Source: Candidatus Peregrinibacteria bacterium Greene1014_49
GTDB taxonomy: Bacteria; Patescibacteriota; Gracilibacteria; Peribacterales; Peribacteraceae
Reading direction: 5' to 3'
Assembly (NCBI GenBank): GCA_007376635.1
Contig: VMGQ01000002.1
Coordinates: 1-34,538, forward strand
Length of the DNA: 34,538 nt
A model generated the notes under the pieces. The model worked only from the letters and a program-made list of their open reading frames with translations, did not search any database and was not told where the DNA came from. Shown in pieces: positions 980-32,422 of the stretch. Each line of letters starts with the position of its first letter. Position 1 is the first letter of the stretch. The position numbers and the translations under genes were made by a program.

Positions 980-1000
980 GGTTTGGGGATTTGTAATAGT

Positions 1001-1110
1001 TCCCCCTCCACCCCTCACCCCTCCTCCACGGGGGAATAATCTTGCTTCTTCACTCGTAAAGCAGAGCTCCCCTTCCTCCCGTGGAGGAAGGGGTCGGGGG
1101 ATGGAGGAGT
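1001..1110. repeat. REPIN-like double-hairpin repeat, copy 1 (internally shortened)
   Basis: tccccctccacccctcacccctcctccacggggg ... ctccccttcctcccgtggaggaaggggtcgggggatggaggag; shares both ends with copies at 4247, 23143, 24643. Confidence 0.85.
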
Positions 1111-4242: not shown

Positions 4243-4246
4243 GTTT

Positions 4247-4394
4247 CTCCTCCACCCCTACCCCCTCCTCCACGGGAGGAGGGGAATGTTTGTTGTGTGT
4301 TGTATGCATGCAATATCGAAGATTGTTGCTTGTTCACTCCGATAAAAGTGCTCCCCTTCCTCTCGTGGAGGAAGGGGCCGGGGGGATGGAGGAG
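4247..4394. repeat. REPIN-like double-hairpin repeat, copy 2
   Basis: ctcctccacccctaccccctcctccacgggaggaggggaatgtttgttgtgtgttgtatgcatgcaat...ctccccttcctctcgtggaggaaggggccggggggatggaggag. Confidence 0.9.
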
Positions 4395-23142: not shown

Positions 23143-23290
23143 CTCCTCCATCCCCCCGACCCCTTCCTCCACGGGAGGAAGGGGAGCTCTTCTTCACGAG
23201 TGAACAAGCAGAATTTTTCCCTGTGGCATGCAAACAACACACAACAAACATTCCCCTCCTCCCGTGGAGGAGGGGGTAGGGGTGGAGGGG
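23143..23290. repeat. REPIN-like double-hairpin repeat, copy 3 (inverted relative to copies 1-2)
   Basis: ctcctccatccccccgaccccttcctccacgggaggaaggggag...gcatgcaaacaacacacaacaaacattcccctcctcccgtggaggagggggtaggggtggagg. Confidence 0.9.
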
Positions 23291-23316
23291 AAAATAATGA
23301 AGAGGAATGAACCGCC

Positions 23317-24642: not shown

Positions 24643-24789
24643 TCACCTCCATCCCCCGACCCCTTCCTCCACGGGAGGAAGGGGAGCTCTGTTTCTAGAG
24701 TGAATGAGCACATGTTTCCTTATTGCATGCATACAACAAAAAACACACATTCCCCTCCTCCCGTGGAGGAGGGATTAGGGGTGGAGGAG
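24643..24789. repeat. REPIN-like double-hairpin repeat, copy 4 (same orientation as copy 3)
   Basis: cctccatcccccgaccccttcctccacgggaggaaggggag...gcatgcatacaacaaaaaacacacattcccctcctcccgtggaggagggattaggggtggagg. Confidence 0.9.
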
Positions 24790-28012: not shown

Positions 28013-28089
28013 GGGGCTGTAGCTCAGTTGGTCAGAGCACCTGCTTTGCAAGCAGGGGGTCAAGGGTTCGACTCCCTTCAGCTCCACCA
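28013..28089 (+). tRNA. tRNA-Ala(TGC), CCA encoded
   Basis: GGGGCTGTAGCTCAGTTGGTCAGAGCACCTGCTTTGCAAGCAGGGGGTCAAGGGTTCGACTCCCTTCAGCTCCACCA. Confidence 0.97.
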
Positions 28090-28125
28090 TGACAACTTTG
28101 CACACTTTGATCTAGTTTGCTCACA

Positions 28126-28148
28126 AAGCGCCACTTGGCGCTTTTTTG
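28126..28148 (+). terminator. Rho-independent terminator downstream of tRNA-Ala
   Basis: aagcgcc-actt-ggcgcttttttg. Confidence 0.75.
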
Positions 28149-28191
28149 TTGCACTTAGTGCGAGTCTGCACACCCAGCAGTTCAAGTCCCT

Positions 28192-28530
28192 TCAGGTCAT
28201 ATGGATGCCTTTATCCTTTAATGAATCGAGAACACATAACTTCACATAATTTGCCAAAACTTCTTTGCGACTGAGTTTTCGGATTTCTCTTTTTGTTGCA
28301 TCTAAACGGTAATCAAGAACAAGTCTCAATTTTTCAGTTTGAGGATCGAAATTAAATGAGCCGTTTTCTAAAAATAATCCATTTGATACATGCAAAGACC
28401 AGGCATAAATGTCAGCTTCTATCTCTTTAGCATCAATTTCGAATGAAGCTTCATCATGTTCATTAATCATTCTCTTTGCTATTTCTCAACCTTTTTCCTC
28501 GGAGAAAGCAGTCAAATCTAATTCGGTCAT
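28192..28530 (-). pseudogene. Hypothetical protein interrupted by in-frame TGA at codon 15
   Basis: MTELDLTAFSEEKG*EIAKRMINEHDEASFEIDAKEIEADIYAWSL...; TATTAT 6 nt before ATG 28530; TGA at 28488-28486. Confidence 0.5.
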
Positions 28531-28646
28531 GAATACATAATACTCTCCACCCCGCTCAAGGTGGGAGAGTTTTTGCTTCATCTTTACAACAAAGTCGAGC
28601 CCACATCGTTGCCTTCCTTGAGCAATCGATCAACTGCCTGCCCACT

Positions 28647-28793
28647 ATGGCCAACTTTGATCCAGATTTGGACGATGTGGAGATGAGCAACGTCATTGGC
28701 CTACTTATGATCATGAAAGAGATACGAGAGCAAAAACCACTCGATGATCCTGATGCCTTAGGGATCGACGAGAAGGGAAAACCGTACTTCTAA
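28647..28793 (+). CDS. 48-aa ORF, copy A of a duplicated small ORF
   Basis: MANFDPDLDDVEMSNVIGLLMIMKEIREQKPLDDPDALGIDEKGKPYF; homologous to 30521-30667. Confidence 0.65.
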   Translation: MANFDPDLDDVEMSNVIGLLMIMKEIREQKPLDDPDALGIDEKGKPYF

Positions 28794-28799
28794 CATGGA

Positions 28800-29966
28800 T
28801 TACGCATCACTGCGGGTAAAAATATTTAGATATTTGGTATACATATACGATTGGCCGTATTTTTTGTCCTTATGTTTTGGAGCAAGAATGCCAATGGCAA
28901 TGAAACGATCAATAACTGTTTGTGCACCTGCGCGCGTGAAGCCCGTCCATACCTGAATCAACGCAGTGTTGACGATAGGTTGACCGTATAGCCTTGGTAA
29001 CACCTTCATGGCGCTTTCGGATGCACGCTTGCCCAGTGTCTGCACCTTGGCCATGTCCTGTTCGCGCAGACTGGTAATATCCGCGACGATCTCGATGGCC
29101 TCCTTTGCGATCTCGATCACGCCATCCAAAAAGAAATCTACCCATGGTGTAACGAAGCCGTTGTGATAATCAGAAAGCTTCTCGTAGTAAAGTTTCTGAT
29201 GCTTCTTGAAGAAGGAAGAAAGAAACAGAACAGGCTTTTCCAAATACCCCTCCTTCCACAGATAGAAGGTGATGAGCATGCGTCCCGTTCTTCCGTTACC
29301 GTCCAAAAACGGATGGATTGTTTCAAATTGTGAGTGAAGAATGCCGGCTTTAATGACCGTAGGCATTGAATCGTCTGCATGCATGAATTTCTCCAGATCA
29401 TTCAGTGCTGCTTGCATTTCAGGAACCGGAGGCGGTACGAAAAACGCACTATCCGGTCGTACGCCACCGATCCAGTTTTGGCTTTTGCGAAACTCTCCGG
29501 GGTCTGCAAAGTGCGTTGCTCGCGCACTATCCATCAGCCTTTTGTGTAATTCACGCACAAAGCGAAGCGACATCGGGAAATTCTCTTCCCGTACGCGCTT
29601 CATTCCGTAATTCAACGCCTGAATGTAGTGCAAGATATCATCGACGTCGGCGGGGATATCGCCGCTTGTTCGTACCTCCGCTTCGATGGCATCGATCATC
29701 GTTGCCATTGTTCCCTCGATCTGGCTCGATGCCGTAGCGTCTTTGCGCAAGTACATAAGCAGGAAAAAATCCTGATCAGGCAATAGCTTTGTGATGCCGT
29801 CTAACTTGCCAAGCAGTCGCGTTGCTTCATCGTTCTTCTTCAGCAGTTTTGCATCGAATGCAAACCCATCCTTTGGAGGGAACTGGCTTGGAATAAAGGC
29901 CTTGAAGCCTTCTGGTTGTGCCCGCAGTGTGCCGAGCTTAATGGGTTCCATAGGCTTTGTTGGCAT
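28800..29966 (-). CDS. Fic family protein (putative AMP-transferase, class II-type inhibitory motif)
   Basis: HPFLDGNGRTGRMLI Fic core; N-terminal SSQIEGT matches (S/T)xxxE(G/N); C-terminal winged-helix-like tail. Confidence 0.95.
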   Translation of the reverse strand: MPTKPMEPIKLGTLRAQPEGFKAFIPSQFPPKDGFAFDAKLLKKNDEATRLLGKLDGITKLLPDQDFFLLMYLRKDATASSQIEGTMATMIDAIEAEVRTSGDIPADVDDILHYIQALNYGMKRVREENFPMSLRFVRELHKRLMDSARATHFADPGEFRKSQNWIGGVRPDSAFFVPPPVPEMQAALNDLEKFMHADDSMPTVIKAGILHSQFETIHPFLDGNGRTGRMLITFYLWKEGYLEKPVLFLSSFFKKHQKLYYEKLSDYHNGFVTPWVDFFLDGVIEIAKEAIEIVADITSLREQDMAKVQTLGKRASESAMKVLPRLYGQPIVNTALIQVWTGFTRAGAQTVIDRFIAIGILAPKHKDKKYGQSYMYTKYLNIFTRSDA

Positions 29967-29977
29967 CTTCTAACGAA

Positions 29978-30015
29978 TGTATACAAAGTATAGTAGTTTG
30001 TATACAACGAGTCAA
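29978..30015 (-). promoter_or_regulatory. Consensus-like promoter with palindromic operator upstream of fic
   Basis: Minus strand TTGACT-N17-TATACT; inverted repeat tgtatacaaa-N9-tttgtataca spans it. Confidence 0.75.
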
Positions 30016-30034
30016 GAGATGTAAACAAACATTT

Positions 30035-30412
30035 CTACAATTCCAAATGCTCTATTACAAATTCATGCATCCTCATGATTGCATCTTTCATGTAGCGCAG
30101 CCGTTCCTGGGCTCTTTTCATCACCGCCGGATCGTCAGACCATTCTTCGACTCCCGCAGAGACAAGGTAACCATTGTGTTTTCCATCATACCTCGCAGTT
30201 TCCAGTAGCTGTGTTAATACAGGATCATTCGCAAAGTGGTGCTTATTCTTTTTGATAATTCTGAATGTCGTCGGATTTATATTCGCCTCCACTTCAACCA
30301 TCACTCGTGAGACATGATCGTCTAAGATTCTTGTATTCAAAACCAGTTTAGCTTCTGAGTATGGACCATCTTCGCCCCAGAGCATGTCCCGATCATTGTC
30401 GCTGATCTTCAT
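30035..30412 (-). CDS. Hypothetical protein, 125 aa
   Basis: MKISDNDRDMLWGEDGPYSEAKLVLNTRIL...; AATACT 7 nt upstream of ATG. Confidence 0.65.
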   Translation of the reverse strand: MKISDNDRDMLWGEDGPYSEAKLVLNTRILDDHVSRVMVEVEANINPTTFRIIKKNKHHFANDPVLTQLLETARYDGKHNGYLVSAGVEEWSDDPAVMKRAQERLRYMKDAIMRMHEFVIEHLEL

Positions 30413-30520
30413 ACCTTGTAGTATTGCATTTTTAGGGCAAGCTTCACAGCTTGCTGTATTTCCACTTAGGAGCGTCTTCGCTTGAATATCTCTCCCAACA
30501 AATTCTATGGTCTGCTCACT

Positions 30521-30667
30521 ATGGCCGACTTTGATTCAGATTTGGATAATGTGCAGATGAGTAACGTGATTGGCCTACTCATGACCATCAAACAGATACG
30601 AGACCAAAAACCACTCGATGATCCGAATGCTTTGGGCATCGACGACAAAGGAAAGCCCTACTACTAA
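30521..30667 (+). CDS. 48-aa ORF, copy B of a duplicated small ORF
   Basis: MADFDSDLDNVQMSNVIGLLMTIKQIRDQKPLDDPNALGIDDKGKPYY; 37/48 identical to copy A by hand alignment. Confidence 0.7.
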   Translation: MADFDSDLDNVQMSNVIGLLMTIKQIRDQKPLDDPNALGIDDKGKPYY

Positions 30668-30897
30668 GCCATTTCTTTCCGAGCCAAAAGTTTGAAAAGT
30701 CCCGGCAGCTCCCTTGACGCACATGTCGTTTACATCACGAATCGCCATGGATTTTCGGGAGGATTTTTCAGAATGGAAATTATCGAAAACAGTGAATTTG
30801 TCAGTCCTCTCAGTTGTTCTGCTGTTATAATGAGATCGGCATTTTGGGGTTCAAAAAGTTTGAACCTCGTACCTGATGCTCCACCATTCTTAACTGT

Positions 30898-31245
30898 ATG
30901 CGTTCACGCTCTGCCTTCACTCTCATTGAGCTTCTCCTTGTGATCGGCATCATCAGCGTGCTTCTCGTCCTAACGCTCCAGGCAGTAAACCCCACGAGAC
31001 AACTGGGCGCCACGCGGAATGCACAACGCAGTAGCGACATTCAGGCGATTCTCAATGCCGTGCACCAGTACGGCGTAGATCATCGCGGGAATCTTCCTTC
31101 AAGCATTCCAACAAGCACTCCTCTCTCTATTTGCCAAACAAATGCTGCAAGCTGCATAAACGGCGTGAATCTGAATGTACTTTCGGGTGCCTATGTCGTT
31201 GCCATTCCGCTCGATCTCGAGATAGCCTCACATTCCGACTGCTGA
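30898..31245 (+). CDS. Type IV prepilin-like protein, possibly truncated
   Basis: MRSRSAFTLIELLLVIGIISVLLVLTLQAVNPTRQLGATRNAQRSSDIQAILNAVHQY. Confidence 0.85.
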   Translation: MRSRSAFTLIELLLVIGIISVLLVLTLQAVNPTRQLGATRNAQRSSDIQAILNAVHQYGVDHRGNLPSSIPTSTPLSICQTNAASCINGVNLNVLSGAYVVAIPLDLEIASHSDC

Positions 31246-31264: not shown

Positions 31265-32422
31265 TCATGTCACCACCTCCTCCAGCCTCCCCTCTCCTAC
31301 CGCCGCCTTGAGTTCCATGCCAATACGTTCTCCAACAGACATCGCTTCGCCATAGAGATACCGCGTATACGGCGTCGCAAATGTTCCGGGGGAACCCGGC
31401 ATGCGGAAGCTCACATCAAAAATAACAATGTCCTCTTTGCCATCTTCCGTCACCACCGCTCCCTGGAGGGCAAACGGCCCGATAATGCCTTTTCCCGTCG
31501 GATCGAGCTTCTTCGGAAGCTTTTTGCATTGTGTAACGAACTTTTCCCCGAGCTCAAAGGCTTTTTCCAGCAGGGATTCTTTGACAGTGCAGGCGATGTG
31601 TCCCGTTTCCACCATCTTCACGGAGGTGAACTGTTTCGCCCATGTTTGATCTTCAGCCGTCATCCGGAGAAATCCGTCGAGATTGGTCTGCCGGCGGGTA
31701 TCTGTTCCGAGAAGTTCCAGTTCTCCCGTCAGCGGCGAATAAAAGAAGTTGAAATTCACGGGAGCGCCAACGACAAACTCCTCGATCGTCGCGTCATCCA
31801 TAGCATCGGGGCTGATCATTCCTGATTTGATGTGCGCGTTCACGCGATCGTCGAAGTCCGCGGCAGTGGCGAGAAAGAAGCCTCGCTCGTATTTGCGCTG
31901 CGCTTCACGCGCTTTCACGATCACCATACGACCGAGGTCGATCTCCTTCGCGGTCGTATACATCTTCGGCGTCCGGATGCCGGCATCGCGCAGCAGATGA
32001 TTTTGGTTATACGGTTGATCGCGCTCCTCAAGTTTCAGCAAATGCCGCGAGCCGAAGATCGGAATGGCAAACTCCTCTTCCACCTTTGTGTAATCCGGGA
32101 AGTACACGCAGAAGTATCTACTATGAACAAAAATTGTGTTCATATTTTGAAGCTTATCGACAATCTTTTTCTGCAAGACGTCTTCAAATTTATCCACGAT
32201 AATCGTCTCGTCGATACAGCCCACCTCCCCACTCCCCACTCCCGATTCCCGACACTTGTAGTACTTCTCATACGTCTTCTCCCTCCCCTTCCGTGCGACA
32301 CATACCGTTCCAAATCCATACTTCTTCGCGCCGTGCGCGACATCGAGAGCACTGTGGCCGCCGAGCATGCCGACGGTCAGATGCTTCTGATCGTAACCGG
32401 AGAGGATGGAAGAGAGATCCAT
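31265..32422 (-). CDS. purP: PurP-family ATP-grasp ligase (FAICAR synthetase-like)
   Basis: LGGHSALDVAHGAKKYGFGTVCVARKGRE...FVHSRYFCVYF...IPIFGSRHLLKLEERDQPYNQNHLLRDAGIRTPKMY...EEFVVGAPVNFNFFYSPLTGELELLGTDTR. Confidence 0.88.
   Translation of the reverse strand: MDLSSILSGYDQKHLTVGMLGGHSALDVAHGAKKYGFGTVCVARKGREKTYEKYYKCRESGVGSGEVGCIDETIIVDKFEDVLQKKIVDKLQNMNTIFVHSRYFCVYFPDYTKVEEEFAIPIFGSRHLLKLEERDQPYNQNHLLRDAGIRTPKMYTTAKEIDLGRMVIVKAREAQRKYERGFFLATAADFDDRVNAHIKSGMISPDAMDDATIEEFVVGAPVNFNFFYSPLTGELELLGTDTRRQTNLDGFLRMTAEDQTWAKQFTSVKMVETGHIACTVKESLLEKAFELGEKFVTQCKKLPKKLDPTGKGIIGPFALQGAVVTEDGKEDIVIFDVSFRMPGSPGTFATPYTRYLYGEAMSVGERIGMELKAAVGEGRLEEVVT
32221..32258. repeat. Short word repeat (gggagtgg)n inside the PurP-like CDS
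   Basis: ccacctccccactccccactcccgattcccgacactt; encodes RESGVGSGEVG on the minus strand. Confidence 0.75.

Follow-up and report, generated by a model that had tools for sequence, protein, structure and literature searches.

A conserved microgene as the candidate backbone of small, recombinase-free islands at tRNA-Ala genes in one family of Patescibacteria

Our analysis of 34,538 nucleotides (nt) of Candidatus Peregrinibacteria bacterium Greene1014_49 (contig VMGQ01000002.1; this whole stretch is the window, and positions are counted from its first letter) leads us to propose, with a probability of roughly 60%, that a microgene forms the backbone of small mobile islands that lack an integrase, occupy the 3' ends of tRNA-Ala genes in one Patescibacteria family (of the Peribacteria/Peregrinibacteria type), carry mostly defence-like, swappable cargo, and depend on a helper. 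This reading is built on the following observations: a protein family and the selection acting on it; tRNA-Ala/att-like boundaries; islands free of recombinase genes; variable cargo; transfer of a fic gene; and the association of the microgene with a single right-end type.

Two copies of the microgene, each encoding 48 amino acids (aa), lie on the forward strand of the window, i.e., copy A at positions 28647 to 28793 and copy B at positions 30521 to 30667, and both translate as the initial annotation had described. As it had also claimed, these open reading frames (ORFs) are homologous (37/48 aa identical) and form direct repeats that enclose fic and a gene for a 125-aa protein; the repeats match over 156 nt at 85% identity and lie 1,874 bp apart. 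We found that the functional unit is larger, extending from a tRNA-Ala gene (28013-28089) to position 30886. Its suggestions of selection at the protein level and of a new microprotein family likewise held up, in that homologues are present in other Patescibacteria genomes and dN/dS is far below 1, both between copies A and B and among the homologues elsewhere. More specifically, copies A and B differ at 22 of 144 coding positions, with 6, 2, and 14 differences at codon positions 1, 2, and 3, respectively (dN = 0.10, dS = 0.56, dN/dS 0.18), and an ungapped comparison of their 60-nt flanks gave 32% identity upstream and 23% downstream. Other comparable microgene pairs, drawn from other genomes, gave dN/dS values of 0.05-0.15, and in a branch of 52-53 aa proteins the variability at the three codon positions was 0.10, 0.04, and 0.28. 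Because homologues in other genomes share the same constraint, the resemblance between the two ORFs is more than chance. Judged by these substitution patterns, the microgene is a real, conserved protein family under strong purifying selection.

Copies A and B are the only ones in the 1.36-Mb, 105-contig assembly. Of the 288 genomes of the class covered by a profile search, 11 are carriers, all from one family, and elsewhere in the phylum a 55-aa homologue (L149, E=9e-26) was found in a single genome, G303, which belongs to a different class; a second sample of the phylum yielded no additional convincing homologue. The sole close record that bears a name is a Candidatus Peregrinibacteria MAG (L015). 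The family comprises two branches, one of 48 aa (as in the window) and one of 52-53 aa, with an invariant core of L8, N15, I26, Q29, P31, L32, P35, D41, and G44 (window numbering); the copy in G109 contains an in-frame stop. Structure prediction (mean pLDDT 68.8) returned a single helix over residues 6-29, too weak a model for a fold search. No match to the family was obtained in Pfam, NCBIfam, PADLOC, phage records, plasmid records, or IMG/VR, nor a significant one in PHROG, and the family is previously undescribed. A phage or plasmid origin of the microgene was rejected, as nothing was found in IMG/VR, phages, or plasmids, and a 37% match in Tateyamaria (L016), situated in a 151-codon open stretch and without the conserved C-terminal half, was taken as chance.

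The microgene is preceded by a 5' block that is conserved in 14/14 copies of the class, varies little in length, and lies at nearly constant spacing from the ATG and with no Shine-Dalgarno sequence. In the 14-copy alignment, this block covers positions 28588 to 28646 (forward strand) before copy A (AGTCGAGC...GTTGC...CCCACT) and positions 30462 to 30520 (forward strand) before copy B (AGGAGC...CTTGAATAT...TCTATGGTCTGCTCACT). It ends in CACTATG and includes hexamers of the TTG(C/A/T) type and of the TATGGT or AACTGT type, which are also at nearly constant spacing. These motifs suggest that the block is likely a promoter giving a nearly leaderless mRNA; it was not picked up by a generic promoter scan. 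We rejected the idea that the block extends the protein at its N-terminus, given the in-frame stops present in some copies. Since the 5' block is conserved past the limits of the ORF, and the nearby right-end module (described below) is conserved at the DNA level with a weak coding signal, one may ask if the ORFs are untranslated by-products of a conserved DNA element, i.e., an attachment or regulatory site. We consider this extremely improbable in light of the third-position bias, the dN/dS of 0.05-0.18 among divergent copies, and the fact that conservation on the 3' side of the microgene ends at the stop codon in most copies.

The window island shares two features with tRNA-integrated islands, as it lies directly 3' of a tRNA gene and bears, at its far end, a direct repeat of the 3' end of that gene, but it lacks an integrase of its own. 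Its insertion site is a tRNA-Ala(tgc) gene (28013-28089, forward strand; identified by ARAGORN and Rfam), of the same gene type as precedes most related islands, and the 3' end of this gene (...CAGCTCCACCA) constitutes the left attachment site. It is followed by a conserved left end (28090-28160; TGACAACTTTGCACACTTTGATC..., then a terminator hairpin at 28125-28144 detected by terminator scan) that is near-identical over about 70 bp with five other islands. The last nine bases of the tRNA-Ala gene (GCTCCACCA, 28081-28089) are repeated at positions 30878 to 30886 (forward strand), and this incomplete repeat of the tRNA 3' end, which in the window spans only 9 nt but is longer in other islands, forms the right attachment site. 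The alternative raised in the initial annotation, that the ORFs are remnants of a duplicated insertion site, is therefore half right: the region does represent an insertion at a tRNA gene, but as repeats of the site we identify the tRNA-Ala 3' end and positions 30878-30886, not the ORFs. The ORFs are selected genes of the inserted island, perhaps doubled when two such islands fused.

Related microgenes are mostly located downstream of a tRNA-Ala gene (tgc, cgc, or ggc), the far end of the segment repeating the tRNA 3' end. Nearly all islands, which measure roughly 1.7-4 kb, begin at tRNA-Ala and, where the right end is visible, close with GCTCCACCA. As exceptions, G232 (L021) and G208 (L022) carry the microgene with no right end detected, and no tRNA-Ala was found within the stretches examined for L017, L021, and L026. 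Six islands have a common left end of about 70 bp including the terminator hairpin. The right ends are of three types, (i), (ii), and (iii), distinguished by sequence within a terminal module of roughly 150 bp, and the microgene is present in 11/12 type-(i) islands versus 0/10 type-(ii)/(iii) islands (Fisher P = 3e-5); thus, one type-(i) right end occurs without a microgene, and type-(ii)/(iii) islands do without it. The window island itself begins with microgene A behind a type-(i) left end, continues with fic and the 125-aa gene, and finishes with microgene B beside a right end of the variant found in L017 and L018. It is probably a fusion of two elements, which would account for the two microgenes around fic and which explains this pair better than local duplication, because the 5' blocks of A and B differ in type. 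Empty sites were observed in G093 and G104, where the gene flanking the window island downstream lies within 10-65 bp of tRNA-Ala. A pilin-like gene (FTLIELLLVIG; 30898-31245), which in the window separates the right attachment site from the conserved flanking gene, is missing from the empty sites of relatives. We also observed two further families of integrase-less tRNA-Ala islands (L070-L078) with other end modules, 1-4 cargo genes, and sizes of 0.9-4.8 kb. Our search of the literature found no description of these tRNA-Ala islands.

No recombinase- or integrase-like ORF was detected in any of the microgene islands, and the only recombinase matches of the assembly (two serine recombinases and one tyrosine recombinase) are on other contigs. 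In this family, serine recombinases are frequent; of the 30 loci checked, 17 end inside tRNA genes. In G228, one such recombinase lies at tRNA-Ala(cgc) and precedes a microgene island. These elements resemble the microgene islands in their insertion at tRNA 3' ends, but they carry a recombinase gene, ending inside the tRNA gene, whereas the microgene islands carry none. The tRNA genes in which serine recombinase genes end (L158-L187, L068, L069) are on the opposite strand and encode tRNAs for Ala, Ile, Met, Glu, Gln, Val, Lys, Asp, and Asn, so that the tRNA gene supplies the last codons of the recombinase.

A direct repeat of the attachment region is found inside the right end of most islands and of all three end types, reaching about 25 bp in the best cases. 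In the window, the inner copy (AAAAGTTTGAA) occupies positions 30686 to 30696 (forward strand) and its outer match positions 30854 to 30864. In type-(ii) islands the inner repeat is positioned at 156 bp, and in most type-(i) islands at 171 bp; within any one island, its variable letters agree with those of the outer copy, with 25/25 identity in two islands; no right-end repeat above threshold was detected in L018 and L078. Matched repeats of fixed spacing that co-vary per island were seen in the window as well as in L019, L020, L024, L027, and L028. Between the repeats, a frame of 47-51 codons is open through the attachment site. The window version (30733-30885, reverse strand; GGASGTRFKLF...WRFVM, then stop) has 51 codons, and the same frame and length are seen in 12 islands. 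Given its weak coding signal (dN/dS mostly 0.2-0.7) and low synonymous divergence, we treated the right-end module mainly as recombination DNA, and the ORF had no match in IMG/VR. That it might be the severed C-terminus of a serine recombinase is appealing, since recombinase genes of this family terminate within tRNA genes, but is unproven, as the one tRNA-Ala recombinase reads the site in another frame and dN/dS is mostly 0.2-0.7. A structured or guide RNA at the right end was rejected on account of weak RNAalifold energies (about -14 to -23 kcal/mol over about 220-250 nt).

The cargo of the window island comprises a 92-aa ORF (28192-28470, reverse strand) with no family match, the fic gene (28800-29966, reverse strand), and the 125-aa ORF (30035-30412, reverse strand), which matches no family above the curated cut-off. 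The Fic protein is SoFic-type and of class II (SSQIEG inhibitory motif, HPFLDGNGRTGR active site; PADLOC SoFic E=1.8e-107; Pfam Fic_N and Fic). Microgene A ends at position 28793, 7 nt from the fic stop codon, which begins at 28800 (28800-28802) on the opposite strand. This arrangement recalls AS1, which PMC12249575 describes as a 47-aa anti-Sofic protein encoded downstream of E. coli Sofic; the likeness is one of size and position, as both are small and adjoin a Sofic-type fic gene. The microprotein might accordingly be an antitoxin of the Fic toxin, in line with the link to Fic control suggested by the initial annotation. That link did not survive the comparison of genomes: unlike AS1, the microgene is near fic in only 1/11 carrier genomes of the class, the remaining ten having different cargo beside it, and G099, which encodes the closest relative of the window Fic (95% aa identity), has no microgene in its genome. 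Moreover, the microgene is convergent with fic and has its own conserved 5' block, and no annotated small gene adjoins the Fic relatives on the two plasmids inspected. A Fic-specific antitoxin was thus rejected by co-occurrence, and we regard an AS1-like role as very improbable.

The Fic block (28796-30047) is 91.7% identical at the nucleotide level to a block beside tRNA-Ala(cgc) in G099, which belongs to a different genus and whose flanking core gene has 68% protein identity to its window counterpart. This comparison identifies the fic module as a recent horizontal transfer. As the homology starts 3 nt past the stop codon of microgene A and G099 lacks the microgene, Fic must have moved without it. 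Fic is interchangeable cargo and not the partner of the microprotein.

Among islands, the cargo differs on both sides of the microgene, e.g., a SMODS nucleotidyltransferase (CBASS-like) with a membrane protein in L028, AbiJ_NTD4/DUF7014 in L023 and L024, DUF4145 in L027, and a D12 methylase in L017. Its richness in abortive-infection and modification genes would fit a microprotein that serves as a general defence-island component (antitoxin, sensor, or regulator) common to many defence cargoes, as would the distant G303 homologue, which resides in a restriction-modification locus and whose start overlaps the stop of the preceding gene. We rate this main rival as unlikely, since the cargo is diverse, including a non-defence TauE exporter and AdoMet decarboxylase, and since islands of other end types hold defence-like genes without a microgene (e.g., a methyltransferase-like gene in L074 and L075). 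The G303 locus lies on a 7.8-kb contig with neither tRNA nor att visible; over positions 227-7770 of L149, two DNA methyltransferases and a GHKL-type protein are densely arranged around the homologue.

The microprotein is acidic (pI about 4.1-4.4), occurs once per element behind its own promoter-like block, and, in its distant form, adjoins methyltransferases, all of which would suit a protein that shields the incoming element by anti-restriction or host take-over, perhaps as a DNA mimic. Such a role seems improbable to us, as the protein has no likeness to any family tested, measures just 48-55 aa, and is conserved far above what is expected of arms-race proteins. Rather, we infer a molecular role in mobility or in the regulation of the element or the host. 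A role for the element is most likely, because the microprotein is the only conserved type-(i) protein gene besides the end module; it may aid the element, not the Fic toxin, as a directionality factor, recombinase partner, or element regulator. Typical excisionases are basic, DNA-binding proteins. The microprotein is small and encoded by an integrated element, but its acidic composition argues against a classical excisionase; moreover, no integrase adjoins the microgene in the island, and no Pfam, NCBIfam, or PHROG match to an excisionase family was obtained.

In the mechanism that we propose for the backbone-gene reading, a recombinase supplied in trans would excise and integrate the island, and the microprotein would be made from its own conserved promoter. 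Helper-dependent integrated islands have been described as "hitcher genetic elements" (PMC11389934), which are similarly small, apparently without their own transfer or integration genes, and combine a conserved site with swappable cargo. In contrast to these, the islands described here have a single 48-55 aa protein as backbone, a Patescibacterium host, a putative helper, and a platform of tRNA-Ala genes of three anticodons. They also resemble integron gene cassettes in being short, recombinase-free, sometimes tandem (L019, L020, L024), and terminated each by a recombination site, but that site is the tRNA-Ala 3' end rather than attI/attC, and no promoter platform was seen. We tentatively raise the more speculative possibility of an integron-like cassette economy at tRNA-Ala in Peribacteria-type Patescibacteria, in which integrase-less cassettes with matched end modules are moved in trans and the microprotein represents a new class of mobility factor for one type of attachment site. 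Little is known about how ultra-small, streamlined Patescibacteria acquire and exchange phage-defence genes; a cassette platform whose boundaries are fixed and which is marked by a single signature microprotein could be searched for in genomes and tested. It would also exemplify a mobile element whose best marker is a conserved gene that falls under the customary annotation cut-offs.

Two minor observations concern the surroundings of the island. Next to the gene at window positions 31265-32422 (compared in L110-L145), the orientation of tRNA-Ala(tgc) relative to its neighbour differs among genomes of the family, and in G147, from the same genus, this tRNA gene is 100% identical over 80 bp yet inverted. 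Related intergenic hairpin repeats of the CCCCTCCTCCCGTGGAGGAGGGG type, possibly REP/MITE-like, occur at window positions 997-1107, 4244-4394, 23143-23293, and 24646-24789 and are 82-93% alike.
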